A stretch of DNA of 64,000 bases from Opitutus sp. ER46 (GTDB taxonomy: Bacteria; Verrucomicrobiota; Verrucomicrobiia; Opitutales; Opitutaceae), in the NCBI RefSeq assembly GCF_003054705.1, contig NZ_QAYX01000017.1, positions 248,001 through 312,000 on the forward strand, written 5' to 3'. The position numbers were made by a program, and so were the translations under genes. Shown one piece after another: positions 10,757-46,317 of the stretch. Within the stretch, counting starts at the first letter, position 1; the number at the start of each line of letters is the position of its first letter. The notes beneath the pieces were generated by a model. That model did no database searches, was not told the origin of the DNA, and saw only the letters and a list, made by a program, of their open reading frames with translations.

Positions 10757-10818
10757 GGTCACGGAGGCGAGGCGCGAGGCAAGGTGCATGGGTGATGCGG
10801 TCGGACGGGGGGGAGGGC

Positions 10819-17672: not shown

Positions 17673-17703
17673 TCCACGCGTTCGTTTGGTCGCCGGTCCT
17701 CCT

Positions 17704-20232: not shown

Positions 20233-20260
20233 ACGGTTACGCAAGTCCATTCCCCCCAAC

Positions 20261-29846: not shown

Positions 29847-31316
29847 TCAGACCACGCGGATGCAGGCGAGCCCGAGGAGCTGGGCAACCTTCTCGAGTTT
29901 GGCCGTCACGTGGCCGATGCCCACCGCGCAATGGTGCGCCGGGCCGTGGGCGTTCCAGCGGTTGACAAACTCGCGGGCGCCGCAGGCGAACCGGTACCGG
30001 CTGTTGGTGTTGCCGATTTCCAGAATCGGACCCGCCACCGATTCACCCTCGGCGCACAGCAGCGCCAGCTTGCCGTCGGCACCCTCGACGATCGAGAGCA
30101 GCGTGACCGGGCCGTGCCGGACGGCCATCTCGACCGACAGGCCGCGGCCAACCTTGCCGTGGTAAACCTTCAGCGGGCGGACCTTGGTCTTGCCCTCGGC
30201 GATGCGGATGTGCCCGGGGCCGTCGTGCCCCATGAGGACGACGTCGGCCTTGAAATCCATCGCGTAGTACTCCGTGAACGAGCCGCCCACGCCGAGGAGA
30301 TCCATGATCTTCATCGCCTGCACATTCTTCACTTCGTACTCGCCGGCGACGGGTACGCCCTGGCCGGTGAGCAGCGAGGTCCCGAGAATGATCGAAGCCA
30401 GCGTGGTCTCGTTCTCCGCCACGCCGGTGCCCTTGTAATAGTAGGCCATCGAGCCCAGCCGGTAGCGGCGCACCATCTGGTCGAGCGCGAGCGACGTGCG
30501 GGCTGCCTCAGCCAGATCGTCGGCTTCACAGTCCGACTGGACGTCGAAGGTCTGCCGAATCTCGGCCACCCGGCGGGTGATCTCCGCGGCGGGGACTTCC
30601 CGACGGAGCGCGGCCAGTTCGTCCACTTCGAGTATCTCCACTTGGGTGCCGAAGGTGGCACACTGGAGCGTCACGTCGGAGTAGATGTCCAGCATCCCGC
30701 TGTAGTAGTGGCCCATGAGACCGAGGCGGTTGTCGCGCATGCCGGCGACGACGCGCGCGGCCTCGACCCACCCATCGATCTCGTTCCAGCAGACCGGATC
30801 GTCCTCGAGGACGCCCGTCACCTGGTGGAACGGAATGCCCGCGCGTTTGAAGACGTTGGCGATTTCCGGGACTGGGCAGGCGGCGCAGTAGGCGAGCCAC
30901 TCGCCGGTCATGCGGGTGCGGTCGCCGAGTTGGTTGAAACGGGCGTAGTCGATCGCCGGTTCCGGGGCGAGATTCAGGACGATCACGGGGACTCGTGCCC
31001 GCTGGATCACCGGCAGAACCGTCGAGGAGAGCGCGTAGGTCGTGACGTAGAGGAACACGATGTCGACGTCGGCGCGCCGGAGTTCCCGGCCCGCGCTTTG
31101 CGCGCGATCCGCCGAGTCCACCAGGCCGACGTTCACAATCTCGACGCCGGGACGACTGAGCTTGGCGCCAACGCGTGCCAGGTACCCTTCGAGCCGCTCC
31201 TTGAGACCGGCGAACTGCGGCCAGTAGGCGTCGAGGCCGATGCCGAAGAGCCCAACTCGGAGCGTCGGGGAGGTGAGGGAGGGCGAGGCGGGGGAAACGG
31301 GTGAGGATGGGGCCAT
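29847..31316 (-). CDS. L-arabinose/L-fucose isomerase-family protein
   Basis: This is a 489-aa member of the AraA/FucI superfamily of Mn-dependent aldose-ketose isomerases. The region GVPVAGEYEVKNVQAMKIMD with SFTEYYAMDF aligns with the catalytic Glu-containing GEGDWK and GTSFMEDY segments of E. coli AraA, and a late HGPAHH fits the metal-binding His. An N-terminal 25-30 residues rich in Ser/Pro precede the fold (LRVGLFGIGLDAYWPQF). ATG 31316 is chosen over an in-frame ATG at 31388 because the extension is low-complexity and runs into the promoter area. It is divergent from a secreted GH2-GH127 series that should release L-arabinose, so arabinose isomerisation is the likely role. Exact substrate remains open. 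Confidence 0.8.
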   Translation of the reverse strand: MAPSSPVSPASPSLTSPTLRVGLFGIGLDAYWPQFAGLKERLEGYLARVGAKLSRPGVEIVNVGLVDSADRAQSAGRELRRADVDIVFLYVTTYALSSTVLPVIQRARVPVIVLNLAPEPAIDYARFNQLGDRTRMTGEWLAYCAACPVPEIANVFKRAGIPFHQVTGVLEDDPVCWNEIDGWVEAARVVAGMRDNRLGLMGHYYSGMLDIYSDVTLQCATFGTQVEILEVDELAALRREVPAAEITRRVAEIRQTFDVQSDCEADDLAEAARTSLALDQMVRRYRLGSMAYYYKGTGVAENETTLASIILGTSLLTGQGVPVAGEYEVKNVQAMKIMDLLGVGGSFTEYYAMDFKADVVLMGHDGPGHIRIAEGKTKVRPLKVYHGKVGRGLSVEMAVRHGPVTLLSIVEGADGKLALLCAEGESVAGPILEIGNTNSRYRFACGAREFVNRWNAHGPAHHCAVGIGHVTAKLEKVAQLLGLACIRVV

Positions 31317-31508: not shown

Positions 31509-33995
31509 ATGAGCCGATGCCCCTCGTCCCCCCTTTCGCTTGGTGCTGCTCGCGACGCCCGTCGTGTCCGCTTGGCCACCGTGCTACTCCGTCCGATTCT
31601 TTGGGTCCTGCCGTTCCTCGGCGCGACCCTGGCCGCCCGCGACGTCGTGCCGCTGACCGCCGGCTGGGAGTTCCATCTGGGCGACGTGCCGCAGGCGAGT
31701 GCCGCCGACTTCGATGCGACGACCTGGGCCCGCGTCGATGTGCCGCACGACTGGAGTATCGGGCTGCCGAAGGATGAAAAGGCGCCGTCCTCCGGGGGCG
31801 GCGGGTTCTTCCAGACGGGGGTGGGCTGGTACCGGCACCATTTCCATGCGCCTCGGCAATGGCGCGGGCAGCAGGTCGCCGTCGAGTTCGAGGGTGTGTA
31901 CATGAACGCGGAGGTCTGGCTCAACGGCGTCAGCCTCGGCCGTCAGCCCTACGGCTACAGCGGCTTCCGCTTCGACCTGACGCCGCAGCTCAAGCCAGGC
32001 GCGGACAACGTGCTGGCGATTCGCGTCGACAACTCCGCCCAACCCAATTCCCGCTGGTACACCGGCTCGGGTATCTACCGGCATGTCCGGCTGATCGCCA
32101 CCGGTCCCGTCTACGTGGCGCCGGACGGGCTCTTCGTTTCCACCAAGCGACTCACCGCGGGTGAAGCCGTCCTGCTCGTTCGCCGCGAATTGCGCAGCGC
32201 CCACGCCCGGGCGCAGCGGGTCGCGGTCGAGACCCGGGTCCTGGATGCCGCGGGTCACGAAGTGGCGAAACAACGCGCCGAACTGGAAATTCCTGCCGGT
32301 GGAACGCAGAGCGCCGACATCGAGCTGACCGTCGCCCACCCGCGAGCGTGGTCGCCTGAGACTCCGGTACTTTACCGGGCCGTCACGCGCGTGTTCGCGG
32401 GGCGCAAGGTGCTGGACGAAGTCGAGGTCACGTTTGGCATCCGGACCGTCCGCGTCTCGGCCGAGCGGGGCTTTGAACTGAACGGCCGGTCGCTGAAGCT
32501 CGTCGGCGGTAACGTGCATCACGATCACGGTCCGCTCGGCGCGGCGGCCTACGATCGCGCGGAGGAGCGGCGGGTGCAGTTGTTGCGGCGCGCCGGCTTC
32601 AATGCGGTCCGCACGTCGCACAACCCGCCGTCTCCCGCTTTCCTCGCGGCCTGTGATCAGCTCGGCCTGCTCGTCCTCGACGAGGCGTTCGACGGCTGGG
32701 CGAGCGCGAAGAACAAACAGGACTACAGCGTGTACTTCAAGGAGTGGTGGCCGCGTGACCTTGCGGCGATGGTGCGGCGCGATCGGAACCACCCCTCGGT
32801 CGTGTTGTGGAGCATCGGCAACGAGATGTACGAGCGTGGGAACGCCAAGGGCCTCGCGTTCGCCCAGCAGATGCGCGCTTGCATCCGGGAGCTGGATGAC
32901 ACCCGGCCGGTGACCGCGGGCATCAACGGCCCGGGCAAGGACGGCGATTGGACGAAATTCGATCCGCTCTTCGCGACGCTCGATGTCGCGGGCTACAACT
33001 ACGAACTTGCCCGGCATCCTGCGGATCACACCCGCGTTCCCGAGCGCGTGATCCTGGTCACGGAGTCATACCTCAACGAGACGTTCTCGGTCTGGGCCGC
33101 CGCGCAGGATTTCCCCTACATCATCGGCGATTTCGTCTGGAGTGCGCTGGACTACCTCGGCGAGGCGGGCATCGGCCGCGTGTTTCCGCCCGGCGCACCG
33201 ATCGTGAAGCACTGGGAGGGCAACCTGTTCCCATGGCATGGCGCCGCCTGCGGCGACATCGACCTCATCGGGCAACGGCGACCCTCCTCGCACTATCGCG
33301 CGATCGTCTGGGATCGCGGCGAGAAACTCTACGCCGCCGTGCTCGTGCCGTCGCCCGACGGCCGGCCCTGGGGCGTGTCGCCCTGGGCGCTGCCGCCGGC
33401 GCTCGCGAGCTGGACCTGGCCCGGCCAGGAGGACCGGGAGCTGAACGTCGAAGTCTACTCCCGCTACGAGCGCGTGCGGCTCTACCTCAACGGCCGTCTC
33501 GTGGGCGAGAAGCCGACCTCCCGTAATGCGGAGTTCAAGGCAACCTTTGCCGTGCCGTATGCTGCTGGCGTGCTCAAGGCCGTGGGCGTCCAGGGTGGGC
33601 GCGAGGTCGAGAGCTTCACGCTCGAGACTGCCGGGGTACCGGCCAAGCTCCGGCTCACCGCCGATCGTCGCGTCGTGCAAGCCGACGGGCAGGACTTGGT
33701 TTTCGTCGACGTCGAGGTGACGGATGCCGAAGGCCGCTGGGTCCCGACGGCGGACACGAGTGTCCGGTTCACGGTTGATGGACCGGCGATGATCGCCGGG
33801 GTGGGCAACGCCGACCTGACCACGATGGAGACCTACCAGGCTAATCCGCATCGGACTTTCCAGGGGCGCGCGCAGTTGATTCTGCGCACCGGCGCAAAAC
33901 CGGGGACCATCAGCCTCCGCGCGCAGGCGGAGGGCTTGCCCGAGTCCCGCCTCGAGATGCGATCTGAACGCGCCGCCAAACCTGGTTCGCGTTGA
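31509..33995 (+). CDS. Secreted GH2 glycosidase (beta-galactosidase-like)
   Basis: This is an 828-aa retaining GH2 enzyme of the short type without the LacZ small-chain domain. The sugar-binding domain has VPHDWS and the jelly-roll sequence VWLNGVSLG. The barrel carries acid/base Glu439 in VLWSIGNEMYERG and nucleophile Glu519 in ILVTESYLNE. A C-terminal DUF4982-like and Ig-like part follows. The N-terminus is a long signal-like region (hydrophobic 30-42, ending TLAA). Substrates in the family include galactosides, glucuronides and mannosides; the neighbours suggest a plant cell-wall galactoside. It overlaps the next gene by one base (TGATG). Confidence 0.9.
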   Translation: MSRCPSSPLSLGAARDARRVRLATVLLRPILWVLPFLGATLAARDVVPLTAGWEFHLGDVPQASAADFDATTWARVDVPHDWSIGLPKDEKAPSSGGGGFFQTGVGWYRHHFHAPRQWRGQQVAVEFEGVYMNAEVWLNGVSLGRQPYGYSGFRFDLTPQLKPGADNVLAIRVDNSAQPNSRWYTGSGIYRHVRLIATGPVYVAPDGLFVSTKRLTAGEAVLLVRRELRSAHARAQRVAVETRVLDAAGHEVAKQRAELEIPAGGTQSADIELTVAHPRAWSPETPVLYRAVTRVFAGRKVLDEVEVTFGIRTVRVSAERGFELNGRSLKLVGGNVHHDHGPLGAAAYDRAEERRVQLLRRAGFNAVRTSHNPPSPAFLAACDQLGLLVLDEAFDGWASAKNKQDYSVYFKEWWPRDLAAMVRRDRNHPSVVLWSIGNEMYERGNAKGLAFAQQMRACIRELDDTRPVTAGINGPGKDGDWTKFDPLFATLDVAGYNYELARHPADHTRVPERVILVTESYLNETFSVWAAAQDFPYIIGDFVWSALDYLGEAGIGRVFPPGAPIVKHWEGNLFPWHGAACGDIDLIGQRRPSSHYRAIVWDRGEKLYAAVLVPSPDGRPWGVSPWALPPALASWTWPGQEDRELNVEVYSRYERVRLYLNGRLVGEKPTSRNAEFKATFAVPYAAGVLKAVGVQGGREVESFTLETAGVPAKLRLTADRRVVQADGQDLVFVDVEVTDAEGRWVPTADTSVRFTVDGPAMIAGVGNADLTTMETYQANPHRTFQGRAQLILRTGAKPGTISLRAQAEGLPESRLEMRSERAAKPGSR

Positions 33996-35587
33996 TGCAT
34001 CGCCCCCCGGCGCTTCGCCGAACCGCCAACCCCCGTCGTCTACTCCTCATGCGCGCTTCCGGATTCCTTGGGCTGCTGCTCTTCACCTATCTGGCCGTCG
34101 CCGTGCGGGCGGAGGTTCGCTGTGCCGCCGTGTTTGGCGATCACATGGTGCTCCAGCGTGATCGCCCGGTGGCGATCTGGGGCGAGGCGGCGCCGGCCGA
34201 AGCGGTGACGGTTGAGTTTGCCGGCCAGACGCGGGCGACGACCGCCGATGCCGGCGGGCATTGGCGTGTTCAGCTGCCGGCCATGCCAGCCAGCGCGGAA
34301 CCGCGGACACTCACGTTGCGCGGGACGAACACAATGACGCTTACGGACGTGTTAGTGGGCGAGGTCTGGCTTTGCTCCGGCCAGTCCAACATGGAGAAGC
34401 AGTTGGGCCCGCGCGGGGGACAGAAGCCGACCGACAACTACGAGGCTGAGATCGGCGCGGCGGATCATCCGCTGCTCCGGTTGTACCAGATGCCCAAGCA
34501 CGGCCGGCCACAGAAGAAGGTCCTCGGCTTTACCTGGGTCGTGTGCACCCCGGAGTCGGTGGTGCGTACCGAGTTCTCGGCGGCGGGTTACTATTTCGGC
34601 CGTGAACTGGTCCGGGAGCTCGGGGTGCCGGTCGGCGTCATCAACGCGAGTTACGGTGGCACTCAGATCGAGACCTGGCTGCCGGAAGGCGCGTTCGCGC
34701 GGTCGGACGCGCTGCGCGAGCTGCGTCACGTCACCTACAAGACCTGGGTGAAGGGCCTCCAGGCCACCGAGCTGTTTCAGAGCATGATCACCCCGCTCGT
34801 GCCTTACACGCTGCGCGGCTTCCTCTGGTATCAAGGCGAGAGCAACCTGATGCAGTCGGAGGGCGCGATCTACACCGAGAAGATGCGGGCGCTAGTTGAA
34901 ACGTGGCGCGAAGCCTGGGGCCAGCCCGAAGCGCCCTGGTACTACGTCCAGCTTGCGCCGTTCACCTATTCGCAGTGGACGAGCTTTCCGCGCCACCAGA
35001 CGCCGGAGGCATTGCCGGTGTTCTGGGAGGCGCAGCGCGCGGCGCTTTCGGTGCCGCATACCGGGATGGTCGTTACCACGGATCTGGTGGCGGACGTGCG
35101 CGACATCCACCCGACAAACAAGCGGGACGTCGGCCTTAGGCTGGCGGGGCTCGCGCTGGCCGAGACCTACGGCCGCGAACGGCTGGCGCGCAGCCCGCAA
35201 TTCCGCGCTCTGGAACGACGGGCGGATGGCAGGCTCGAAGTCCGGTTCGCGGACGCCGGGACGGGGTTGCGCACGCGCGACGGTCGGCCGGTGTCGGATT
35301 TCCTGGTTGCCGGTTCCGACCAGCGGTTCGTGCCCGCGATGGCCGAGATCGAGGGGGACCGCGTGATCGTGAGCTGCCCGGAGATCAAGGATCCCGTGGC
35401 GGTGCGCTTCGCCTGGCGCGAGACGGCAACGCCCAACCTGGTCAACTCGGCCGGGCTGCCGGCGATGCCATTCCGGACCGACACCTGGCCCGTGGTCTCG
35501 GATGCGCCCAAGCCTCCGGCTGAACCCAAAGCTCCGACGCCGGCGCCTACCGCCGATCACGGAAAATCCGGCGCCGTCCGTCAGTAG
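33995..35587 (+). CDS. Sialate O-acetylesterase-like SGNH hydrolase, secreted
   Basis: This is a 530-aa serine esterase of the SASA family. The nucleophile Ser131 is in WLCSGQSNME, GVINASYGGTQIE and WYQGESN are the oxyanion blocks, and the catalytic Asp/His pair is in DIHPTNKRDVG (His372). An N-terminal signal peptide ends near residue 39 (AVAVRAE). Family members remove acetyl groups from sialic acid but also from plant polysaccharides such as pectin and xylan, which fits the neighbours better. ATG 33995 shares one base with the previous stop; ATG 34049 would give a more compact signal peptide and is the alternative. The C-terminus is Pro/Ala-rich. Confidence 0.87.
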   Translation: MHRPPALRRTANPRRLLLMRASGFLGLLLFTYLAVAVRAEVRCAAVFGDHMVLQRDRPVAIWGEAAPAEAVTVEFAGQTRATTADAGGHWRVQLPAMPASAEPRTLTLRGTNTMTLTDVLVGEVWLCSGQSNMEKQLGPRGGQKPTDNYEAEIGAADHPLLRLYQMPKHGRPQKKVLGFTWVVCTPESVVRTEFSAAGYYFGRELVRELGVPVGVINASYGGTQIETWLPEGAFARSDALRELRHVTYKTWVKGLQATELFQSMITPLVPYTLRGFLWYQGESNLMQSEGAIYTEKMRALVETWREAWGQPEAPWYYVQLAPFTYSQWTSFPRHQTPEALPVFWEAQRAALSVPHTGMVVTTDLVADVRDIHPTNKRDVGLRLAGLALAETYGRERLARSPQFRALERRADGRLEVRFADAGTGLRTRDGRPVSDFLVAGSDQRFVPAMAEIEGDRVIVSCPEIKDPVAVRFAWRETATPNLVNSAGLPAMPFRTDTWPVVSDAPKPPAEPKAPTPAPTADHGKSGAVRQ

Positions 35588-35716: not shown

Positions 35717-37780
35717 ATGAAATCCGTTCCCCGCCTTCTCGCTGTGCTCTTCGCGCTCGCCGTCTTCTCCGTGGCCGGCCGGGCCGCCGGGCCGGGCCCG
35801 CTCCTGCTCGGCTCCGCGTGGTACCCGGAGCAGTGGCCGGAGGAGCGCTGGGACGCAGACCTCAAGCTGATGGCCGATGCCGGCATGCACATGGCGCGTA
35901 TCGGCGAGTTCGCCTGGAGCAGCATGGAGCCCGAAGAAGGGCGCTACACGCTCGACTGGGTCGAGCGGGCAATCAATGCCGCGGCCCGGCACAACATCGT
36001 CGTTGTTCTCGGCACGCCGTCAGATGCGCCGCCGGCCTGGCTGACCAGCAAGTACCCGGAGACGCTGCGGGTGACGGAGGCCGGCGTGCAGATCCGCCAC
36101 GGCTTTCGGCGGCAGTTCAACTACACCAGCCCCAAGTACCTCGAGCTCAGCCGCCGCATCGCCGAGGAGTTGGCGCGTCGCTTCGGGCACCATCCGAACG
36201 TCATCGGCTGGCAGATCGGCAACGAGTACACCGAGGACTCCTTCGACCCGCACTCGCGCCAGCTCTGGCACCAGTGGCTGCAGCGCAAGTACGGCACCCT
36301 GGACCAGCTCAATCACCACTGGATGACGGCGTATTGGAGCCAGACGTACAGCGCGTGGGACCAGATCCCGATGGAGACGGGGCGGAGCAACCCGGGACTC
36401 CTGCTCGACTACAAGCGGTTCGTCACCGAGCAGTGGGTGCACCTCCAGCGCAACCAGCTCGAGGTTATCCGCGCCCACGCCGACCCGCGCCAGTGGATCA
36501 CCACGAATCTCGGCGGGCTGGGATGGGCGAACCGCTTCAACCGGACTGACATCGCCGCGGACCTGGACTTCATTTCCTGGGACACGTACGTGGGCCAGGG
36601 CCACCTGAATCCCACGCGCATTGGCGCGACCCACGACCTCGTGCGCGGGTGGAAGCGGAAAAACTTCTGGGTGATGGAAATCCAGCCCGGTTTCGTCGAC
36701 TGGGCGGGCATCGCCAACTCGCTCGACAAGGGCGAGACCCGGGCCGCGGTCTGGGAAGCGGTCGGCCATGGCGCCGACGCGGTCGCCTTCTGGCAATGGC
36801 GCGCGGCGCTCAACGGCCAGGAGCAATACCACGGCGTGCTCGTCGGGCCCGACGGTGAGCCGGTGCCGTTCTACGAGGAGGCCAGGCAGCTCGGCGCCGA
36901 GTTCGCGCGGGTGGGGCCCGCGCTCGCCGGTACGTCACCCGAATCGCAGGTCGCCATCCTGCACGATTACGACAGCCGCTGGGCGATCGATTTTCACCTG
37001 CACTCCAAGCGCTACGACCAGATCGAGACCCTCCTTGGCTACTACGCGGCGCTGCGCGAACTCACGCAGTCCGTGGACATCATCGATCCCCGGGGCGGAC
37101 TGGAGGGCTACAAGCTCGTGGTAGCCCCGAACCTGAATGTCGTCTCGCCGGAAATGGCGCGGCGCCTCGAACAGTATGTCCGGGGCGGTGGGCATCTGCT
37201 GCTGGGGCCGCGTTCGGGGCTCATGAACGAGTACAACGCCCTCAGCACGCTCGGGCAGCCCGGCCTGCTGCGCGACCTGGTTGGCGCGAAGGTGGAGCAG
37301 TTCTACGCGTTGCTCGACGACGTGCCGGTCTCCGGCCGCTGGGGTGACGGTCGCGCGACGATCTGGGCGGAGTATCTCCGGCCGCTCGCGCCCGACGCGA
37401 CCGTGACCCTGACGTACGGTCGCGCCAATGGCTGGCTCGACGGCAAGCCGGCCATGGTCAGCCGCAAGCTCGGCAAAGGCACGATCTCGTATCTTGGGGC
37501 TCTGCTTGAGCCGGCGATGATGCAGCGCGCGGCCCGCGACCTGGTGCAGGCCGCCAGTGTCAATTCGCCCACGATCCCAGTGCCCGCTGGCGTCGAGGTT
37601 TGCCGCCGGGTGGGGCAGGGCCGCGAGGTCTTCGTCGTCATCAACCACAATCCCAAGCCGGTCGTGCTCGACCTCCCCGTGGGGTGCAGCGACCTCCTGC
37701 GACCGTCCGCCCAGGAGCGCATCGAGCTCCCCCAATACGACGTGGCTGTCCTGCAGCGCAATCCCGCCAAACCCAACTAA
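35717..37780 (+). CDS. Secreted GH42 beta-galactosidase
   Basis: This is a 687-aa retaining beta-galactosidase. The barrel opens with GSAWYPEQWPEERW and ARIGEFAWSSMEP, typical of GH42. The acid/base is Glu170 in IGWQIGNEYTED and the nucleophile Glu321 in FWVMEIQPGFVDWA. A trimerisation domain (about 400-600) and a small beta domain follow. A signal peptide covers 1-23, which is unusual since most GH42 enzymes are cytoplasmic; here secretion fits its neighbours. GH42 enzymes often act on galactans and arabinogalactans. It starts 129 bp after the esterase gene on the same strand. Confidence 0.92.
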   Translation: MKSVPRLLAVLFALAVFSVAGRAAGPGPLLLGSAWYPEQWPEERWDADLKLMADAGMHMARIGEFAWSSMEPEEGRYTLDWVERAINAAARHNIVVVLGTPSDAPPAWLTSKYPETLRVTEAGVQIRHGFRRQFNYTSPKYLELSRRIAEELARRFGHHPNVIGWQIGNEYTEDSFDPHSRQLWHQWLQRKYGTLDQLNHHWMTAYWSQTYSAWDQIPMETGRSNPGLLLDYKRFVTEQWVHLQRNQLEVIRAHADPRQWITTNLGGLGWANRFNRTDIAADLDFISWDTYVGQGHLNPTRIGATHDLVRGWKRKNFWVMEIQPGFVDWAGIANSLDKGETRAAVWEAVGHGADAVAFWQWRAALNGQEQYHGVLVGPDGEPVPFYEEARQLGAEFARVGPALAGTSPESQVAILHDYDSRWAIDFHLHSKRYDQIETLLGYYAALRELTQSVDIIDPRGGLEGYKLVVAPNLNVVSPEMARRLEQYVRGGGHLLLGPRSGLMNEYNALSTLGQPGLLRDLVGAKVEQFYALLDDVPVSGRWGDGRATIWAEYLRPLAPDATVTLTYGRANGWLDGKPAMVSRKLGKGTISYLGALLEPAMMQRAARDLVQAASVNSPTIPVPAGVEVCRRVGQGREVFVVINHNPKPVVLDLPVGCSDLLRPSAQERIELPQYDVAVLQRNPAKPN

Positions 37781-37993: not shown

Positions 37994-40069
37994 ATGAAGC
38001 TTCCGTTTGCCCTCGGCCTTTCGTTCCTGACGGCCCTCGTTCCGCTCACGCTCCGCGGCGGCGAGCGGTCGCTCATCGACACGACCCGCTCGCCCGCGGC
38101 GAAGATGTACATGGTCGATCTCGCCGACGTGAAATGGACCAGCGGGTTCTGGGCCGAGCGCTTCGCGGCATGTCAGCACACCATGGTACCGCATCTCTGG
38201 GAGATCTTTCAGAGCGATACCGACAGTCACGCCTGGGCGAACTTCCTGATCGCGGGTGGCGTGGAGTCCCGTGGCGACAACAAGTTTCACGGTCCGCCGT
38301 TCAATGACGGCGACTTCCTGAAGTGGTTCGAGGCCCTGGCCCAGGTTTACGCGGTCACGCGCGACCCCGCGATCGACGCGCAGATGGACCGCATCATCGC
38401 CGTGGTGGCGAAAGCGCAGCGCGAGGACGGCTACCTGCACACCCAGACGGTCATTCCCCAGCGCCAGGGCGACCCGAAGGTGAAGGAGTTCGCCGACCGC
38501 GAGCACTTCGAGACCTACAACATGGGGCATTTGATGACCGCCGCGTGCGTTCACTACCGCGTGACGGGCAAGACCACGATGCTCGACCTGGCGCGCAAGG
38601 CCGCGGACTACATCGACGGGCTCTGCACCCGCGTGCCGGAGGAACTGGCGCGCAACGCGATCTGTCCGTCGCACTACATGGGCGTGATCGAGCTCTACCG
38701 CGTGACGCGCGAGCCGCGCTACCTCGAGCTCGGCCGGAAGCTGATCGAGATCCGCAGCCTCGTGCCGGCGGAGGTCGGAAGTGACTACAACCAGGACCGC
38801 CTGCCTTTCCGCGAACTCACCACCGCGGCGGGCCACGCCGTGCGGGCCAACTATCTCTATGCCGGAGTCGCCGATGTGTTCGCCGAGTCGGGCGACGCCA
38901 CGCTCCTCCGCACGTTGGGCGTGCTGGCCGACAACGTCGCCGGGACGAAACTCTACATCACCGGCATGACCGGCGCGCTCTACGACGGGGCGTCACCCGA
39001 CGGCGCGAAGGACCACAAATCGATCCAGCCGACGCACCAGTCCTACGGTCGCGACTACCAGTTGCCGAACCTCACCGCCTACAACGAGACGTGTGCGACG
39101 ATCGGATACGCGATGTGGAACTGGCGCATGCTCACCTTGAGCGGCGACGCCCGGTATGCGGACCTGTTCGAACAGTCGCTCTACAACGGCGTGCTCCCCG
39201 GCATCAGTCTCGAGGGCAAGGACTACTTCTACGTCAACCCGCTGCGGAAATCGGCCGACTTCCAGTGGCCGATGCGCTGGTCGCGGAGCCGGATGCCGAA
39301 CATCAAGTCGAGCTTCTGCTGCCCGCCCAATGTCGTGCGCACGATCGCCGAGGCGCACAACTACGTGTATTCGCTCTCGGCCGATACCCTCTGGGTCCAT
39401 CTCTACGCGGCGAGCACGCTGGATACGGCGTGGACGGATGGCGCGCGGATCCGGCTGCGGCAGGACACCAACTATCCCTGGGACGGCGCGATCAAGTTCA
39501 CCATCGACGAAGCGCCAGCGCGTCCGATCAAGGTGCGGCTCCGGATCCCCGGCTGGTCGAAGCCCGACCGCGCGGTGGTGACGGTTAACGGCGACGCCCT
39601 TGCGGACGGTTTGGGCGGGCGGCCCGTCCCGGGCACGTACTTTGACGTGACCCGGACCTGGAAGGCGGGCGACACGCTTGAGCTCAAGATTGCGTTTGCA
39701 CCGACGGTCTGGGAGGCGAACCCGCTGGTGGAGGAAACGCGCAACCAGGTCGCGGTGCGTTACGGCCCGTTGGTGTACTGCCTCGAGCAGAACGACCTGC
39801 CCGAGGGCGTGAAGCTGGACGACGTGTCCCTTGGGCGCTGGCTCAAGGCTGGCGAGTGTCGCACCGTCCCGCTGCAGATCGTGAACGCGAACGTGCTGGC
39901 ACTGAAGCTGCCCGGCTGGACGCAGGAAGCGCCGGCGTGGGCGGCTGGCGAGCTGTACCGCGAGGCGACCCTGGGACGAGTGCGTCGGACCGAGCTGACC
40001 TTCGTGCCCTATTTCGCCTGGGGCAATCGCGGAGACACCGACATGTCGGTCTGGATTCCCGCGCGCTGA
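37994..40069 (+). CDS. Secreted GH127-family (DUF1680) beta-L-arabinofuranosidase-like enzyme
   Basis: This is a 691-aa alpha/alpha-barrel enzyme of the GH127/DUF1680 type, which release L-arabinofuranose from plant glycoproteins and pectin. The cysteine/zinc site known from HypBA1 is present: Glu365 and Cys367 in AYNETCATIG, Cys442 and Cys443 in SSFCCPPN, with Cys442 at the nucleophile position. By hand alignment the acid/base Glu322 of HypBA1 corresponds to Gln349 here (THQSYGRDYQLPN), so this protein may belong to a subgroup with a different acid or substrate. A signal peptide covers about 1-22. ATG 37994 is chosen for it. The RuBisCO-like gene follows after 22 bp. Confidence 0.85.
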   Translation: MKLPFALGLSFLTALVPLTLRGGERSLIDTTRSPAAKMYMVDLADVKWTSGFWAERFAACQHTMVPHLWEIFQSDTDSHAWANFLIAGGVESRGDNKFHGPPFNDGDFLKWFEALAQVYAVTRDPAIDAQMDRIIAVVAKAQREDGYLHTQTVIPQRQGDPKVKEFADREHFETYNMGHLMTAACVHYRVTGKTTMLDLARKAADYIDGLCTRVPEELARNAICPSHYMGVIELYRVTREPRYLELGRKLIEIRSLVPAEVGSDYNQDRLPFRELTTAAGHAVRANYLYAGVADVFAESGDATLLRTLGVLADNVAGTKLYITGMTGALYDGASPDGAKDHKSIQPTHQSYGRDYQLPNLTAYNETCATIGYAMWNWRMLTLSGDARYADLFEQSLYNGVLPGISLEGKDYFYVNPLRKSADFQWPMRWSRSRMPNIKSSFCCPPNVVRTIAEAHNYVYSLSADTLWVHLYAASTLDTAWTDGARIRLRQDTNYPWDGAIKFTIDEAPARPIKVRLRIPGWSKPDRAVVTVNGDALADGLGGRPVPGTYFDVTRTWKAGDTLELKIAFAPTVWEANPLVEETRNQVAVRYGPLVYCLEQNDLPEGVKLDDVSLGRWLKAGECRTVPLQIVNANVLALKLPGWTQEAPAWAAGELYREATLGRVRRTELTFVPYFAWGNRGDTDMSVWIPAR

Positions 40070-40091: not shown

Positions 40092-41360
40092 ATGGACCGA
40101 GTTGTTGCGCATTACCTGATCGAGACGCCGCGGGATGTCGGGCAGGCGGCCGCGGCGCTGGCGGGCGAGCAGTCCTCCGGCACGTTCGTAGCCGTGCCGG
40201 GTGAGACCGAGGAGCTGAAGCAGCGGTTCGCCGCGCGGGTGGAGCGGATCACGCCGCTCGAGGACGTGGCGCAGTCCTCGCTGCCGGGAGCGCGGGGTGG
40301 CGGTGCGGTGTATCACCGGGCGGAGATCGCGGTCTCGTGGTCGATCGAGAACTTCGGCGCGAACCTGCCGACGCTCGTCTCGACCGTGCAGGGCAATCTG
40401 TACGAGCTCGCGCAGTTCTCCGGCCTGCGGCTGGTTGATCTGGAGCTGCCGCCGGGGTTCACCGCCAGGTATCGTGGGCCCCAATACGGCGTGGACGGAT
40501 GCCGCGAGCTGACCAAGGTCATGGGCCGTCCGCTGATCGGCACCATCATCAAGCCGAGCATCGGCATGACGCCGGCCCAGACGGCCGGCTTGGTTGCCAC
40601 GCTGGTCGAGGCGGGCATCGACTTCATCAAGGACGACGAGCTGATGGCGGACCCGCCGCATTCGCCGTTCGACGCCCGGGTGGATGCGATCATGCGCGTG
40701 ATCAATGCGCACGCGGAGCGCACCGGGAAGAAGGTGATGTACGCGTTCAACATCACGGACGAAGTCGAAGCCATGCGACGGCACTACGACAAGGTGGTGG
40801 CGGCGGGCGGCACGGCCGTGATGCTGAGCCTCAACAGCGTGGGGCTGACCGGCGCGAAGCAGATCTGCGACCAGGGGCAGTTGGCCATCCACGGGCACCG
40901 CAACGGCTGGGGCATGTTGAACCGGCACCCGCTGCTCGGGATGGACTTTCGCGCGTACCAGAAGCTGTGGCGGCTGGCGGGCGTCGATCAGCTCCACGTC
41001 AACGGCATCGCCAACAAGTTTTGGGAACCGGATGACTCCGTGGTGCGTTCGATCGCCGCGTGTCTCGCGCCGATGGCGGGTGGTGTGAATGGCAAGCTCC
41101 GGCCCGTGCTGCCCGTTGTGTCGTCGGGCCAGTGGGGCGGGCAGGCGCCCGAGACGTTCCGACGGACGCAGACGCTTGACCTGCTCTACATGGCGGGCGG
41201 CGGCATCATGGCGCACCCCAGCGGGGCCGGGGCGGGCGTGCGTTCGCTGCAGACGTGGTGGGCGGCGGCCGCCGAGGGCCTGACTGCGGCGGAGGCGGTG
41301 AGCCGGTATCCCGAACTCCAGCCCTCTGTGGCGAAGTTCGGTGGAGGCCGGGTGGGCTGA
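40092..41360 (+). CDS. RuBisCO-like protein (form IV), OiaX-type candidate
   Basis: This is a 422-aa homologue of the RuBisCO large subunit but not a CO2-fixing enzyme. Retained positions are Lys154 (spinach K175) in GTIIKPSIG, the metal-binding KDDE with Lys180 (K201), His269-Arg270 (H294/R295), His302 (H327) and loop-6 Lys309 (K334). Changed ones are K177 to Ser156 and W66 to Phe32. Proteins of this kind next to a DUF1537 kinase are known as OiaX, decarboxylating 3-oxo-isoapionate 4-phosphate in D-apiose breakdown; that the same reaction occurs here is inference. ATG 40092 is used; a TTG at 40083 is also in frame. The kinase follows after 26 bp. Confidence 0.88.
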   Translation: MDRVVAHYLIETPRDVGQAAAALAGEQSSGTFVAVPGETEELKQRFAARVERITPLEDVAQSSLPGARGGGAVYHRAEIAVSWSIENFGANLPTLVSTVQGNLYELAQFSGLRLVDLELPPGFTARYRGPQYGVDGCRELTKVMGRPLIGTIIKPSIGMTPAQTAGLVATLVEAGIDFIKDDELMADPPHSPFDARVDAIMRVINAHAERTGKKVMYAFNITDEVEAMRRHYDKVVAAGGTAVMLSLNSVGLTGAKQICDQGQLAIHGHRNGWGMLNRHPLLGMDFRAYQKLWRLAGVDQLHVNGIANKFWEPDDSVVRSIAACLAPMAGGVNGKLRPVLPVVSSGQWGGQAPETFRRTQTLDLLYMAGGGIMAHPSGAGAGVRSLQTWWAAAAEGLTAAEAVSRYPELQPSVAKFGGGRVG

Positions 41361-41386
41361 ACGGCTGGCGAGCCAACGAGGCGCGC

Positions 41387-42694
41387 ATGAATTCCTATCT
41401 GGCGTATTACGGCGACGACTTCACGGGCTCGACGGATGCCTTGGAGTGGCTGACGCGCGCGGGATTTCGCACCGTCCTGTTCACCGGGGTGCCGACGGCG
41501 GAGCAGTTGCGGCGCTTTGGCCAGCTCGACGCGGTGGGTGTGGCCGGTTGCACCCGGGCGCTGGCGCCGGGCGCGATGGCGGCGGAGCTTCAGCCGGCTT
41601 TCGCGGCGTTGCGTGCGCTGGGCGCCGCGCACGTGCACTACAAGGTGTGCTCGACCTTTGATTCGGCGCCCCACGTGGGAAGCATTGGCCGGGCGATCGA
41701 GCTGGGGCGCGCCGCCTTTGGCGGGCCGTTCGTGCCGCTGGTTGTGGGGGCGCCAGCGCTGGGACGTTATTGCGTGTTCGGAAACCTGTTCGCGCGCTTC
41801 GGCATTGGGAGTGCGGGGGCGGTCCATCGGCTCGATCGGCACCCGGCGATGCGCCGCCATCCAGTTACGCCGGCCGACGAAAGCGATCTGCGGCTGCATC
41901 TGGCGCGGCAGACCGGTTTGCCCGTGGGCCTCTTCGATGTTCTCGCGCAGGAGCTGGAGCCGGCGCGCCGTGACGCTGAACTGGCCCGGCTGGTCAGCGA
42001 AGGGGCCGAGATTGTCCTGTTCGATGTGATGGAGCCGGCTCATCTCGAGCATATCGGCGCGCTGCTGGGCCCCCTGGGCGAAGGCGATCGCCCGCTATTC
42101 TCCGTTGGCTCGTCCGCGATCGAGATGGCGCTCGGTGGATACGCTCAGCAGACGGGGCGCGTGACGCCGCGCTCGACGTGGGCGGAGGTCGGCGCCGTAT
42201 CCTCGTTGTTGGTGGTGTCCGGCAGTTGCTCACCCGTTTCGGTGCGCCAGATTGCCTGGGCGGCGAACCATGGTTTTGCAGAGGTCGGGCTCGCACCGGA
42301 TGCGGACGAGGCTGAAGTGACGGCGGCGATCGCGACGGCGACGGCGCATCGGCGGGAGGGCCGTCATATCGTCGTGCATACGCGGCCCGATCGGATCGTG
42401 GCGGCGCCGGTGCGGCCGGAGTGCGTCGGCGCGATGCTCGGTCGCGTGGCGAAGGCGGTGCTCGGCGCGACGCGCGGCAAGCGCCTGTTGATCGCCGGTG
42501 GCGACACCTCGAGCTACACGGCGCGGACGTTGGGCATCGAGGCGGTGGAGATGATTGCGCCGCTCGCCCCCGGCGCCCCGCTGTGCCGGGCCCATGCGGC
42601 CGCTGCCCCGATCGACGGGCTCGAGGTGAATTTCAAGGGCGGCCAAGTCGGCGCGGAGGACTATTTCGGCGCGGTCGCGCGTGGCGCGCTGTGA
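41387..42694 (+). CDS. DUF1537 four-carbon/sugar-acid kinase (OiaK/OtnK-like)
   Basis: This is a 435-aa ATP-dependent kinase of the DUF1537 family. The N-terminal substrate domain has the signature YGDDFTGSTDALEW (residues 8-21). The C-terminal nucleotide domain has AGGDTSSYTARTLG and VNFKGGQVGAEDYF. Members phosphorylate acid sugars such as erythronate, threonate, 3-oxo-tetronate and 3-oxo-isoapionate. Pairing with a RuBisCO-like protein immediately upstream points to a 3-oxo sugar acid whose 4-phosphate is then decarboxylated. No OtnC aldolase, OtnI isomerase or PdxA2 is nearby, which argues against the tetronate pathways. Confidence 0.88.
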   Translation: MNSYLAYYGDDFTGSTDALEWLTRAGFRTVLFTGVPTAEQLRRFGQLDAVGVAGCTRALAPGAMAAELQPAFAALRALGAAHVHYKVCSTFDSAPHVGSIGRAIELGRAAFGGPFVPLVVGAPALGRYCVFGNLFARFGIGSAGAVHRLDRHPAMRRHPVTPADESDLRLHLARQTGLPVGLFDVLAQELEPARRDAELARLVSEGAEIVLFDVMEPAHLEHIGALLGPLGEGDRPLFSVGSSAIEMALGGYAQQTGRVTPRSTWAEVGAVSSLLVVSGSCSPVSVRQIAWAANHGFAEVGLAPDADEAEVTAAIATATAHRREGRHIVVHTRPDRIVAAPVRPECVGAMLGRVAKAVLGATRGKRLLIAGGDTSSYTARTLGIEAVEMIAPLAPGAPLCRAHAAAAPIDGLEVNFKGGQVGAEDYFGAVARGAL

Positions 42695-42761
42695 ACGCGG
42701 CCCATCCCTTGCGTCGCTCGAATCGGTCTCACCGCCCTGTAGTCCTTCTTCTGTTACTGTC

Positions 42762-43424
42762 ATGCCCCTCAAAACCCTCGGTCTCATTCATACTTCGGCG
42801 ACGCTCGTTCCGGTCTTCGCGCAACTTTGCAGGGCGAAGCTGCCTGGCGTGGCCACGTTCAACATCGTTGACGACAGCCTGGTGCGCGCGATCGGCGCGC
42901 GCGGTGCGCTGACGGCCGATATTGCCCGTCGGGTCGGCGCGTACATCACGTCCGCGGAGGCGGGGGGGGCGGATCAGATCCTGGTGACCTGCTCATCGAT
43001 CGGGCCGGCGGTCGAGGCCTCTGCCGCGTTCTGTGGTGTGCCGGTCCTGCGCGTCGACCAGCCTATGAGTGATCAGGCCGTGCGGACGGGGCGGCGTATC
43101 GGGGTGATTGCGACGCTGCCGACGACGCTGAATCCGACGTCGGACCTCGTGCGCCGGCGCGCGGCCCTGGCAGGGCGGGAAATCGAGCTGCAGTCGCGAC
43201 TGTGCGAGGGGGCTTTCGAGGCGCTGATGAGTGGCGATGCGGCAAAGCATGATGCGATGGTGGCGGACGCGCTGCGGCAGTTGTCGCGGCAGGTGGATGT
43301 GATTCTCCTGGCGCAAGCGTCGATGGCCCGCGTGGTGGAGACGCTGGCGGAGTCGGATCGCCGGGTGCCGATTCTGGCGAGCCCGGGCATCGCGATCGAC
43401 TTTCTGGCCGCACACATCGCCTGA
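42762..43424 (+). CDS. Asp/Glu racemase-superfamily protein with a single catalytic Cys
   Basis: This is a 220-aa two-domain protein of the Asp/Glu/hydantoin racemase superfamily, which includes racemases, maleate isomerase and arylmalonate decarboxylase. The first-half cysteine is present (Cys77 in ILVTCSSIGP). At the second-half position, where racemases have Cys in a GCTH-like motif, it reads LLAQASMAR (about 183-190), so the second cysteine is missing. A two-base racemase mechanism is therefore unlikely, and a one-sided reaction such as isomerisation, lactone opening or decarboxylation is more likely. It lies 67 bp after the DUF1537 kinase and should belong to the same pathway. Substrate unknown. 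Confidence 0.8.
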   Translation: MPLKTLGLIHTSATLVPVFAQLCRAKLPGVATFNIVDDSLVRAIGARGALTADIARRVGAYITSAEAGGADQILVTCSSIGPAVEASAAFCGVPVLRVDQPMSDQAVRTGRRIGVIATLPTTLNPTSDLVRRRAALAGREIELQSRLCEGAFEALMSGDAAKHDAMVADALRQLSRQVDVILLAQASMARVVETLAESDRRVPILASPGIAIDFLAAHIA

Positions 43425-43532
43425 GGACTAAGGAAAGGTTTCTCCGATCGGAAGGGGCGCGCGCAACTCCGACCGGCGGAGCCCCGGAGTGGCCCGGGGG
43501 GCAACGTTTGGCGCGCGCCTGGACTTTACCCC

Positions 43533-44843
43533 GTGACTGCTGAAATAACCCCGCAAAACCCGGCGACCGCGCCGGACATCATTCGTTGGCGCAAGGCGTG
43601 CCTTTACGTCGTGCCTTGGGCGCTTGTCGCGGTGGCGGCGGGCGTGATCTCCTGTCGCGTCGGGCTATGGCAGGGCGGTGCCGTGGTTGCGAGTGTGGCG
43701 CTCGCGCTTGGGCTCGGGGCGATGCCGGCGACGCGCGGCTTTCAGTTTACCGGGTGGATCGTTGCGGCCGTGACGGCCAGCATGTGTTTCCCGTCGGCGT
43801 TCCTGCACTGGGGAAGTTTCGATCTGCGGAACAAGTGGGTTATCCTGCTCGTGGTGCAGTTGGTGATGTTCGGAATGGGCACGCAGATGAGCCTTGCGGA
43901 TTTCAAGGGCGTGGCGAAGACCCCGCGCGGCGTGCTCGTGGGCATTGTGTGCCATTTCTCGATCATGCCGCTGGTAGGCGTGGCGTTGACGAAGGTCTTC
44001 GCGTTTCCGCCGGAGATTGCGGCCGGCATCATCCTGATCGGCTCCTGCTCGAGCGGGCTGGCGTCGAACGTGATGGCCTATCTCGCGGGTGCGAACCTCG
44101 TGCTTTCGGTGACGGTGACGGCGATCACGACGCTGGTGGCGCCGTTCATGACCCCGCTGTTGATGAAGCTCTTCGCGGGGACGCTCGTGGAGGTGAAGTT
44201 CGTCAACATGATGATGGAGATCATCAAGATCGTGATTGTGCCGATCGGGGCGGCGTTGCTGCACGACTACCTGAAAACGGCCTCGGCGACCGGACGGCGG
44301 TGGGTGCATGTGATCGCGGTGGCGGCGGCGCTTTGGCTCGCGATGCTGGCGTTGGGTGGGTGGGGCTGGGTGGCGGGGCAGGTGGGCGAGTCGGCGCGGC
44401 TGGTTATCGGGACGTTGGGATTCTTCCTGGCGGCGGTGCTCGTGGGGCTCCTCTATCACGTCGCCGTGCGGCGCTGGCCGGCGATTGGGCGCAAGATGCC
44501 GCTCGGGTCGATGGCGGGAATTGTGTATTTCACGGCGGTGACGACTGCGGCGGGCCGGGACAACCTGCTGCAGATCGGGGCGCTGCTGTTCGTTGCGGCG
44601 GCGTTGCACAACGCGGCGGGCTACTTTTTCGGCTACTGGCTGAGCCGCGGCGCGGGCCTCGACAAGAACTCGGCGCGGTCGGTCGCCTTCGAAGTGGGGC
44701 TGCAGAACGGCGGCATGGCATCCGGCCTCGCGGGGTCGATGGGCAAGCTCGCGACCGTGGGTCTCGCCGCCGCGATCTTCAGTCCCTGGATGAACATCTC
44801 CGGCTCAATCCTCGCCAACTACTGGCGCCGCCGCAAAGCCTAG
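43533..44843 (+). CDS. BASS (bile acid:sodium symporter)-family transporter
   Basis: This is a 436-aa membrane protein with about ten helices. The conserved sodium-site crossover regions are visible: IGSCSSGLASNVMAYLAGANL followed by SVTVTAITTLVAPF (first broken helix), and FEVGLQNGGMASGLA (second). The N-terminus has an extra 60-90 residues with two helices. BASS proteins take up organic anions such as bile acids, pyruvate, pantothenate and ketoacids with sodium. In this position, after a sugar-acid kinase and RuBisCO-like enzyme, import of a sugar acid is the obvious hypothesis. GTG 43533 starts the frame; the 108-bp gap before it contains the palindrome TCCGATCGGA (43443-43452) and a short GC hairpin. 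Confidence 0.87.
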   Translation: MTAEITPQNPATAPDIIRWRKACLYVVPWALVAVAAGVISCRVGLWQGGAVVASVALALGLGAMPATRGFQFTGWIVAAVTASMCFPSAFLHWGSFDLRNKWVILLVVQLVMFGMGTQMSLADFKGVAKTPRGVLVGIVCHFSIMPLVGVALTKVFAFPPEIAAGIILIGSCSSGLASNVMAYLAGANLVLSVTVTAITTLVAPFMTPLLMKLFAGTLVEVKFVNMMMEIIKIVIVPIGAALLHDYLKTASATGRRWVHVIAVAAALWLAMLALGGWGWVAGQVGESARLVIGTLGFFLAAVLVGLLYHVAVRRWPAIGRKMPLGSMAGIVYFTAVTTAAGRDNLLQIGALLFVAAALHNAAGYFFGYWLSRGAGLDKNSARSVAFEVGLQNGGMASGLAGSMGKLATVGLAAAIFSPWMNISGSILANYWRRRKA

Positions 44844-44877
44844 CGCCCGCGTGAGGAAACCGCCTGGAGCCACCAAG

Positions 44878-45063
44878 AGGGACAGGCCTCAATCAATCAG
44901 GGGACAGGCCCAAAATCGGGCACCCTAGGAACCAATCAGGAGACAGGCCCAAAACCGGGCACCCTAGCAGTTACTAGCAGCTAACTGGGGACAGACCCTC
45001 TTTACCACGGGGCCAAAACAGGGGCCAGACCTATCTGGCCTATGCCGAAACAGGGGACAGGCC
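44878..45063. repeat. Left repeat cluster, GGGGACAGGCC family (6 copies)
   Basis: Copies are at 44878-44888, 44901-44911, 44940-44950, 44988-44998, 45021-45031 and 45053-45063, with G/A and A/C variation at single positions. Two of them are part of a 34-bp tandem unit (44895-44928 and 44934-44967) that starts AATCAGG and ends GGGCACCCTAG, with two mismatches between copies. The remainder of the 487-bp gap 44844-45330 contains no gene. Confidence 0.75.
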
Positions 45064-45330
45064 TTCATTGCTGGAGGTAGCGGTGCTTGCCAAGGTCAGA
45101 CCCTATGGCGCTGGTGGTGAGAAGCTGGAAAGAAGAACTAGGGGACCAGAAATACTCTTGGATGGGGGGCGTCGGTCGCGGTTTATGGCGATATTGTAGG
45201 CGATGTCTCTGCGACGGGAGTAGCCGATATGAGGTAGTCGCTGCGAAGTAGATGTATTTCGTGGGATATTGAAATGCTGATAGTGGTAATAAAAGATTGT
45301 CGAAGAGAAATAAAAAAGCATAGTGGCGTC

Positions 45331-46317
45331 ATGGCTCGAAACCGGATCAAAGTCTCGGCGCGGCAGCAGGGAGCGATCTATCACCTGATGAGTCGGTCGG
45401 TGAACGGGGAACTCAGGCTGGAGGAGGATGGGCAGGAGTACCTGCGGCAATTGGTGTGGCGGATGGCGGAGTTTACGGGGATTCGGATCATCGCGTATGC
45501 GATCATGGACAACCATTACCACGTGGTGGTGTTCGTCCCGCACTGGGAGCCGTTGTCGGATGCGGAGCTGCTCCGCCGTCACGCATGTCTGTATCCCCAG
45601 CCTACGAAGCTGCAGGTGGCGAAGTTGGCGGAGATCAAGGCGCAGATGCCGGAGAACGGGCCGAAGGCGGTGGCGTGGCGGGCTGCGATACAGCGGCAGA
45701 TGAATGACATCTCGTCGTTCATGAAGCTGATCAAGGAGCGCTTCGCGATGCGGTACAACCGGCAGCACGAGCGTTTTGGCCCAGTGTGGTGTGGACGCTT
45801 CAAGAGCGTCCTGGTCGAGGACAAACCGCACTTGCTGCAGATATTGGGACTGTACGTGGATCTGAACCCGGTGCGTGCCGGGATCGTGGAGGATCCGAAG
45901 GATTATCGGTTCTGTGGGTACGCCGAGGCGGTGGCGGGAGGGAAGAAGGCGCAGGAGGGCATACGTTTTCTCGTAGGCGGCGACACGTGGGAGGAGACGC
46001 ACAGCGCGTACCGGCGACTGCTGTTTGCGACCGGCGGAACGGAGCGGCCGGGAAAAGCATCGATTTCAGCAGAGCGGGTGAGGGAGGTGCTCGCGAATGG
46101 CGGACGCCTACCGCTGGCGGTGGTGTTACGTTGTCGAATTCGTTACTTCAGCGACGGCACGGTACTGGGAAGCAGAGCTTTCGTTGAGTCGCACCTGGCT
46201 GCCTACCGCCAACGTACCGGTATGGGAAAGCGCATGGCGCCGCGTTCCCTCCCCGCGGTGACCGATTGGGGCGACATCGCCGGCCTGCGCGGCTCACGGG
46301 GCCCAATCTTCTGTTAA
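45331..46317 (+). CDS. REP-associated tyrosine transposase (RAYT, Y1_Tnp)
   Basis: This is a 328-aa protein of the IS200/REP-associated transposase family, single-strand endonucleases that use a catalytic tyrosine. It begins with the typical MARNRIKVSARQQGAIYHLM and has the metal-binding His62-Tyr-His64 in MDNHYHVVV. The likely catalytic Tyr142 is in RFAMRYNRQH, followed by the conserved GPVWCGRFKSVLVED. About 110 extra C-terminal residues are seen in larger RAYT proteins. ATG 45331 is preferred over an in-frame ATG at 45274 since homologues start at MAR. The reading frame is intact, so it may be active. It processes the surrounding GGGGACAG repeats, by analogy with E. coli TnpA-REP. Confidence 0.9.
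   Translation: MARNRIKVSARQQGAIYHLMSRSVNGELRLEEDGQEYLRQLVWRMAEFTGIRIIAYAIMDNHYHVVVFVPHWEPLSDAELLRRHACLYPQPTKLQVAKLAEIKAQMPENGPKAVAWRAAIQRQMNDISSFMKLIKERFAMRYNRQHERFGPVWCGRFKSVLVEDKPHLLQILGLYVDLNPVRAGIVEDPKDYRFCGYAEAVAGGKKAQEGIRFLVGGDTWEETHSAYRRLLFATGGTERPGKASISAERVREVLANGGRLPLAVVLRCRIRYFSDGTVLGSRAFVESHLAAYRQRTGMGKRMAPRSLPAVTDWGDIAGLRGSRGPIFC

Follow-up and report, generated by a model that had tools for sequence, protein, structure and literature searches.

A conserved RuBisCO-like protein cassette of Opitutus sp. ER46 as a candidate catabolic unit for L-aceric acid of rhamnogalacturonan II

Gene layout and conservation of the cassette

The DNA considered here, hereafter the window, is a stretch of 64,000 nt from the genome of Opitutus sp. 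ER46 (assembly GCF_003054705.1, contig NZ_QAYX01000017.1, positions 248,001-312,000 of the forward strand). It harbours a cassette of four intact and consecutive genes on the + strand, encoding (i) a RuBisCO-like protein (RLP), (ii) an OiaK-like kinase of the DUF1537 (four-carbon acid sugar) type, (iii) a protein of the Asp/Glu/hydantoin-racemase fold (RACE), and (iv) a transporter of the BASS family (Table 1). An earlier note on this DNA, made from the letters alone, had described four neighbouring same-strand genes with gaps of 26, 67 and 108 bp, and both the coordinates and the Pfam domains agree with that description. On the same strand, a gene for a glycoside hydrolase of family 127 (GH127) ends 22 bp before the start of the RLP gene and, as such, the unit comprises at least five genes.

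For the comparison across genomes, a species-level genome collection was scanned with an alignment of 11 RLPs, and the loci of the best 80 of at least 567 relatives were retained; these correspond to the best-scoring RLPs (63-76% identity), and the counts given for them hold for this RLP clade rather than for all RLPs. A wider comparison of 90 loci combined these 80 loci from named genomes with ten from another search that in part cover the same places. The 80 loci span the Verrucomicrobiota, the Bacteroidota, the Planctomycetota and one genome of the Balneolota. By tblastn, the kinase was recovered in 76 of them, the counts for RACE, the BASS protein and GH127 being 75, 73 and 42, and the genes for RLP, kinase, RACE and BASS protein are contiguous and in the same order in 66. 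Among the 14 other loci, several reach the edge of a contig and four, all from Dyadobacter, differ in strand. In the latter (L056, L065, L070 and L080), the BASS and RACE genes lie downstream of the RLP gene on the opposite strand, while the gene finder called a kinase beside the RLP in all except L070. GH127 stands directly upstream of the cassette on the same strand in 21/80 loci, with gaps from -25 to 157 bp. The clustering of the four genes is thus not a matter of chance, and the concern that they might rarely be neighbours in relatives does not hold.

Table 1. Features of the window around the RLP cassette (GH, glycoside hydrolase; homologue counts refer to the 90-locus comparison).
Feature	Position in window	Strand	Evidence	Remark
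L-arabinose/L-fucose-isomerase-like protein, divergent	29847..31316	-	PF11762 33 bits, PF02952 25.5 bits	
GH2	31581-33995	+	Pfam	upstream context; homologues in only 10/90 loci
SASA esterase	34049-35587	+	Pfam	upstream context; homologues in only 13/90 loci
GH42	35717-37780	+	Pfam	upstream context; homologues in 0/90 loci
GH127, predicted exported	37994..40069	+	PF07944 338 bits	signal-peptide-like N-terminus by inspection
RLP	40092..41360	+	PF00016 (RuBisCO_large) 204 bits, PF02788 36.5 bits	
DUF1537 (four-carbon acid sugar) kinase, OiaK-like	41387..42694	+	PF07005/PF17042 (SBD_N + NBD_C) 184 and 100 bits	
RACE	42762..43424	+	Asp_Glu_race PF01177 73 bits	
BASS-family transporter	43533..44843	+	SBF/BASS PF01758 117 bits (cut-off 24.3)	GTG start

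The isomerase-like gene of the - strand was considered as a further core member and rejected: at E 1e-10 it has no best match in the 90 loci, its only relative there being the distant neighbour cluster c28 (25% identity, E 5e-7). Just after the BASS gene (window 44843-46317), short repeats of the type GGGGACAGGCC precede a Y1_Tnp gene (IS200/RAYT-like; 45331-46317, 28.7 bits) and, on inspection, repeats and gene together look like a REP/RAYT element. Farther upstream, positions 16351-24577 hold a gene for a IIC component of the phosphotransferase system (PTS) type, other genes that look PTS-like on inspection and, after these, a gene for a GH38 mannosidase bearing CHB_HEX_C and laminin-G domains.

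The adjoining GH127 and its co-occurrence with the cassette

The best curated model for the window GH127 is that of aceric acid hydrolase (NF049879, 906.7 bits; curated cut-off 950), and its closest relative in the PDB is 5mqo (667 bits, the next being at 345), which we take to be BT1003. BT1003 of Bacteroides thetaiotaomicron, itself a GH127, is an aceric acid hydrolase (PMC5698469). Together with a score in the top tier of NF049879, clearly apart from other GH127, this argues that the window GH127 is probably a BT1003-like aceric acid hydrolase. The earlier note had linked the cassette to pectin-type substrates through the adjoining GH127, a link that now narrows to the pectic polysaccharide rhamnogalacturonan II (RG-II).

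Presence of the cassette and presence of this hydrolase were compared over whole genomes. Among 387 Verrucomicrobiota genomes, 208 match NF049879, but just 13 of them make up a tier at 874-960 bits, below which scores start at 762. Counting matches of every strength, 19/387 have an RLP or RuBisCO, and the cassette-clade RLP is present in 11, namely that of the window and ten at 69-76% identity, the eight weaker ones (23-34% identity) not being counted. A top-tier GH127 (874-916 bits) is found in all 11 cassette genomes versus 2/376 of the others; in each of three genera (g7, g9 and g14) having both cassette and top-tier GH127, there is also a genome that lacks the two. In the Sphingobacteriaceae (251 genomes), 82 genomes have a GH127 over the cut-off (1098-1214 bits), the next score being 504. 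There, the RLP clade (60-70% identity) occurs in 34/251, leaving aside one further match of 44 bits, and a GH127 over the cut-off occurs in 34/34 of these cassette genomes versus 48/217 of the others.

A further set of 40 cassette genomes was composed of 38 genomes from the 40 loci without a clustered GH127 and of two (L043 and L055) with one. In 39 of these 40, a match to NF049879 is present at 834-1196 bits, and 29 of these matches exceed the cut-off. The single miss is G419, where only a 62-residue GH127 piece lies against a contig edge; this contig is about 5.5 kb long, a size matching that of the contig with the RLP of the same genome. The best GH127 copies of the tested Bacteroidota cassette genomes pass the cut-off (1088-1214 bits), save one fragment. 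Outside this test, loci L081 and L111 gave incomplete matches to GH127 (41 and 39%). Cassette-adjoining GH127s were assigned to a group by their likeness to one another; a scan of a single protein covers, within the 80 loci, only that of L061 (891.8 bits).

The relation is nested, i.e., the cassette implies the hydrolase while the converse does not hold. A hydrolase without a cassette would be expected if the hydrolase is also a means of reaching the sugars beneath. The control genome of Bacteroides ihuae matches NF049879 (presumably it is the one over the cut-off among three matching controls) but is outside the five controls that have a RuBisCO_large match. Of note, one operon without an RLP cassette (L138:4101-10936, genome G140) combines an isomerase, a split transketolase and an FGGY kinase with a top-tier GH127, so that in this genome the hydrolase is kept without the RLP catabolic route.

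As for the wider gene neighbourhood, recurrent neighbour clusters are represented by BT_1020-like, Apiosidase-domain, GH95, GH88 and rhamnosidase-like proteins. One neighbour protein matches positions 10-351 of the model for a bifunctional glucuronidase/arabinofuranosidase, presumably the GH137 portion of BT0996, a protein of RG-II breakdown, and further ones are rhamnosidase-like. Sialidase-like (BNR) proteins are present near RG-II-type loci (window 9635-10789 and L122:28192-29364); an RG-II hydrolase for 3-deoxy-D-lyxo-heptulosaric acid (Dha) being sialidase-like, these BNR proteins could be acid-sugar hydrolases.

Comparison with loci of D-apiose catabolism

An adjacent RLP and DUF1537 kinase are reminiscent of the OiaX/OiaK pair by which, as Carter et al. 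reportedly described in 2018 (work cited in PMC6302742), D-apiose is catabolised. The likeness extends to the predicted chemistry, i.e., phosphorylation followed by decarboxylation of a branched 3-oxo acid. Both window proteins score below the curated cut-off of 700, the RLP with 501.3 bits to OiaX (NF042437) and the kinase with 391.9 bits to OiaK (NF042436). The RLP and the kinase of a canonical-type Shinella locus also fall short (471.6 and 472.5 bits), and the OiaX cut-off is narrow since this canonical-type RLP misses it too. By its large-chain domains and its retained K/D/E metal site, the window RLP is assigned to the RuBisCO superfamily: residues K154, K180, D182 and E183 are invariant in 11 sequences (the window and ten others) and align, for K154, to the KPK motif and, for K180/D182/E183, to the KDDE motif of RuBisCO 6hun; where KPK has its second Lys, the window protein has S156. 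In a tree of 53 rows, a 100/100 branch splits 42 cassette RLPs from 10 canonical-type RLPs, with about 52% identity between them, which places the cassette RLPs, at the level of sequence, in a clade apart from and sister to the OiaX type. The positions specific to the clade are 97, 100, 104, 113, 232, 300, 306, 318, 321, 343 and 359, some of them close to stretches that align with the active site of RuBisCO.

The canonical-type sample consisted of ten loci chosen among 365 plasmid records in which an RLP was matched, with 7-9 kb around each, from Rhizobium (two), Shinella, Bradyrhizobium, Cupriavidus, Microvirga, Azospirillum, Labrenzia, Paraburkholderia and Halalkalicoccus. Within these 7-9 kb, tblastn recovered RACE and the BASS protein in 0/10 and the kinase in 9/10. 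Conversely, ApnO- and ApnL-like genes were found in 0/80 cassette loci (tblastn with Shinella queries, E 1e-6) and the ApdH query matched 5/80, with at most 58 bits, whereas the same Shinella queries (likely ApnO, ApnL and ApdH) each match 4/9 of the other canonical-type loci. The ApnL label of its query rests on 313 bits for a cut-off of 750, and the two other query proteins are presumably ApnO and ApdH. At the genome level, neither the ApnL model nor the ApnO-like protein has a match in Opitutus sp. ER46, a weak test as it comes without a genome-level positive control; the tblastn over the 80 loci, for which the canonical-type loci serve as control, is the stronger one. The complete canonical apiose pathway that by the earlier note could refute its proposal thus did not turn up in these searches. 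Contig 22 of the same genome carries an intact operon for a fucose-isomerase-like protein (c28), a split transketolase and an FGGY kinase, next but one to an Apiosidase-domain gene, and this gene set presumably resembles the apulose-4-phosphate transketolase route for apiose. The c28 isomerase is near 6/80 cassettes.

The cassette therefore differs from the D-apiose OiaK/OiaX system in lacking ApnO/ApnL-like genes and having only weak dehydrogenase matches, in the addition of RACE and the BASS protein, in its separate RLP clade and in its link to a GH127 of the aceric-acid-hydrolase tier. A Croceibacterium plasmid operon (L125:7175-12352; GH127, RLP, kinase and GDSL esterase) was considered as a second cassette and rejected, its GH127 scoring 87 bits on the aceric acid hydrolase model, RACE and BASS being missing and its RLP falling on the canonical side. 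It possibly represents another sugar for the RLP/DUF1537 pair.

A candidate pathway for L-aceric acid and its alternatives

L-Aceric acid, i.e., 3-C-carboxy-5-deoxy-L-xylose, is a branched acidic sugar of RG-II. After a shift of the carbonyl from C1 to C2, it becomes HOCH2-CO-C(OH)(COO-)-CHOH-CH3, which is 3-oxo-isoapionate, HOCH2-CO-C(OH)(COO-)-CH2OH, with one more methyl group. As such, the OiaK/OiaX pair of reactions would apply to it unchanged. The operon is best read as a catabolic unit for L-aceric acid, from release by GH127 through to aldolase cleavage, with a probability put at about two in three; the substrate is named after the partner GH127, which belongs to the aceric-acid-hydrolase tier. 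On a genetic linkage that is directly observed, we infer from the predicted proteins the substrate, every reaction and the following order of steps, namely (i) the exported GH127 would free aceric acid from RG-II, (ii) the BASS protein would act as the inner-membrane importer of this monocarboxylate, (iii) RACE, as a single-cysteine aldose-ketose isomerase, would move a proton between C2 and C1 in a one-base, suprafacial manner to yield the keto form, (iv) the OiaK-like kinase would phosphorylate the CH2OH beside the ketone, (v) the OiaX-like RLP would decarboxylate the beta-keto acid via an enediolate to a 5-deoxypentulose 1-phosphate, resembling RuBisCO in reverse, and (vi) a class II aldolase encoded elsewhere would cleave the latter into dihydroxyacetone phosphate (DHAP) and acetaldehyde.

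Several features of the unit fit such a scheme. No oxidation step is needed and the unit has no dehydrogenase; aceric acid is a monocarboxylate that needs an acid transporter and the unit has a BASS protein, which possesses the SBF domain and scores 206 bits, under the cut-off of 400, on the model of the pantoate transporter PanS (NF047939). The earlier proposal of uptake, isomerisation, phosphorylation and decarboxylation of a branched sugar acid is thus supported at the level of predicted function, the genes being neighbours in most loci and the searches having found no canonical apionate route. Its further suggestion that RACE and the BASS protein replace the upstream apiose steps is borne out as to the missing ApnO/ApnL-like genes, but "not needed" is preferred to "replaced" because aceric acid already bears its carboxylate. 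As for RACE, it has the PF01177 family domain and fold, and its residues C77 and Q185 are invariant in 42/42 sequences, site placement resting on an alignment to 2eq5 in which the second segment is weak. In contrast to hydantoin/allantoin and Asp/Glu racemases, the position of the second catalytic Cys is thus occupied by Gln in all 42, which makes racemisation by a two-Cys (two-base) mechanism unlikely.

For the last step, four Aldolase_II matches were found in the window genome, and a single double-domain gene that adjoins a rhamnulokinase-like gene (contig 21; L144:8635-9912) accounts for two of these; a double class II aldolase in a single gene is unusual. A comparable disposal is that of 5-deoxyribose, in which 5-deoxyribulose 1-phosphate is cleaved to DHAP and acetaldehyde (PMC6302742). 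The proposed end steps would be alike, whereas the entry sugar differs and the cassette comes without a dedicated aldolase.

Some observations weigh against the aceric acid pathway. Although the window GH127 resembles BT1003 by its best curated model, its score lies below the curated cut-off, as do those of the GH127s in the other ten Verrucomicrobiota cassette genomes, and specificities of another kind also exist within GH127, one example being a member in a carrageenan cluster (PMC5698469). The Fisher values for the co-occurrence of cassette and hydrolase, about 1e-19 each, ignore the relatedness of the genomes, and 48 of the 82 Sphingobacteriaceae hydrolase genomes have no cassette. The candidate aldolase best matches 3-oxo-tetronate-4-phosphate decarboxylase (190 bits, cut-off 250), ahead of an epimerase (146 bits), fuculose-phosphate aldolase (138 bits) and rhamnulose-1-phosphate aldolase (78 bits); as its best curated matches point elsewhere, the aldolase role is a guess from position. 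We know of no precedent for an isomerase role of the Asp/Glu-racemase fold. Gfo/Idh/MocA dehydrogenases lie within 10 kb in 20/80 loci (c12 in 11, c16 in 9). Finally, BT_1020-like proteins, taken as a control marker for RG-II degraders with a line drawn by us at 170 bits, occur in 12/387 Verrucomicrobiota genomes, nine of which have the cassette (9/11); of the two others with a cassette, G292 lacks such a protein and the window genome (G000) has a weaker one, at 126 bits, still over the cut-off of the family itself. Since strong proteins of this kind follow the cassette too, an association with a single RG-II enzyme can not by itself separate aceric acid from other RG-II sugars. The cassette thus goes with RG-II degradation generally, and most completely with the GH127 tier. 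Genomes in which the two markers disagree were tried as a discriminator and set aside as too few, the cassette being present in 2/3 with the aceric tier only and 0/2 with BT_1020 only or, counting G000, in 1/2 and 0/2.

Such a general RG-II or pectin setting, with the 9/11 co-occurrence, would equally suit another acidic component or product as substrate, e.g., Dha, 3-deoxy-D-manno-octulosonic acid (Kdo) or a branched acid derived from a uronate. Enolase-superfamily genes (c35 and c55, one member of each having been scanned) directly upstream of the RLP gene in five loci (L038, L039, L042, L043 and L046), and near the cassette in three more (L081, L094 and L101), point the same way; they probably act on another acid, since in aceric acid the carbon alpha to the carboxylate bears no hydrogen. 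Against this stands the chemistry, as among RG-II sugars only aceric acid has, to our knowledge, a branched carboxylate that gives a 3-oxo acid after one isomerisation, and also the GH127 tier, which all 11 have and which in many loci adjoins the cassette, although 11/11 and 9/11 differ too little to count on their own; another acid is regarded as the least probable substrate. Somewhat less improbable, yet still unlikely, is a D-apiose route in which apiose would be oxidised elsewhere to 3-oxo-isoapionate, the kinase and RLP acting as OiaK and OiaX and leaving side roles to RACE and the BASS protein. OiaX and OiaK are indeed the nearest curated models, RG-II contains apiose too, an Apiosidase-domain gene occurs in some loci and Gfo/Idh/MocA is the fold of apiose dehydrogenase; the dehydrogenases near the 20 loci are mostly from Chitinophagaceae and Sphingobacteriaceae and score no higher than 58 bits against the apiose dehydrogenase of the canonical type. 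This route is countered by the 0/80 count for ApnO/ApnL-like genes and their absence from the window-genome searches with the limit stated above, by the distinct RLP clade and the want of RACE and BASS in 10/10 canonical-type loci, by an acid-type transporter in place of a sugar ABC system, and by the separate isomerase/transketolase/FGGY operon of contig 22, the isomerase of which is also near six cassettes.

A third possibility overlaps with the preferred explanation: the pathway would be that of aceric acid, with a fucose/arabinose/rhamnose-type isomerase performing the isomerisation and RACE being an epimerase, a mutarotase or a repair enzyme. Classical isomerase-like proteins do exist in the genome (that of Table 1 and c28 on contig 22) and RACE lacks precedent in the role; of the alternatives this one is given the highest odds, though well short of even. 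RACE is nonetheless the sole further enzyme regularly in the unit (75/80), no isomerase-like cluster is as regular nearby (c28, 6/80) and a one-Cys site suits a one-base transfer better than an epimerisation.

RG-II belongs with the plant polysaccharides of greatest complexity and, so far as the literature searched shows, the fate of the aceric acid freed from it is undescribed; no bacterial catabolic pathway for aceric acid is among the matches listed in that search, which was mostly without subscription papers and preprints. That the cassette represents a new pathway extending over the Verrucomicrobiota, Bacteroidota, Planctomycetota and Balneolota, with a RuBisCO-fold decarboxylase on a new substrate and a single-Cys racemase-fold isomerase, is put forward tentatively, at a confidence short of even. 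If true, hydrolase-bearing bacteria without the RLP, such as 48/82 Sphingobacteriaceae, would be predicted to free aceric acid without using it by the RLP route and may feed others. Genes labelled only generically in the annotated record would gain a function, the RuBisCO superfamily and the Asp/Glu-racemase fold would be extended by a new substrate and a new type of reaction, respectively, and the operon would complete the use of RG-II in many free-living bacteria.

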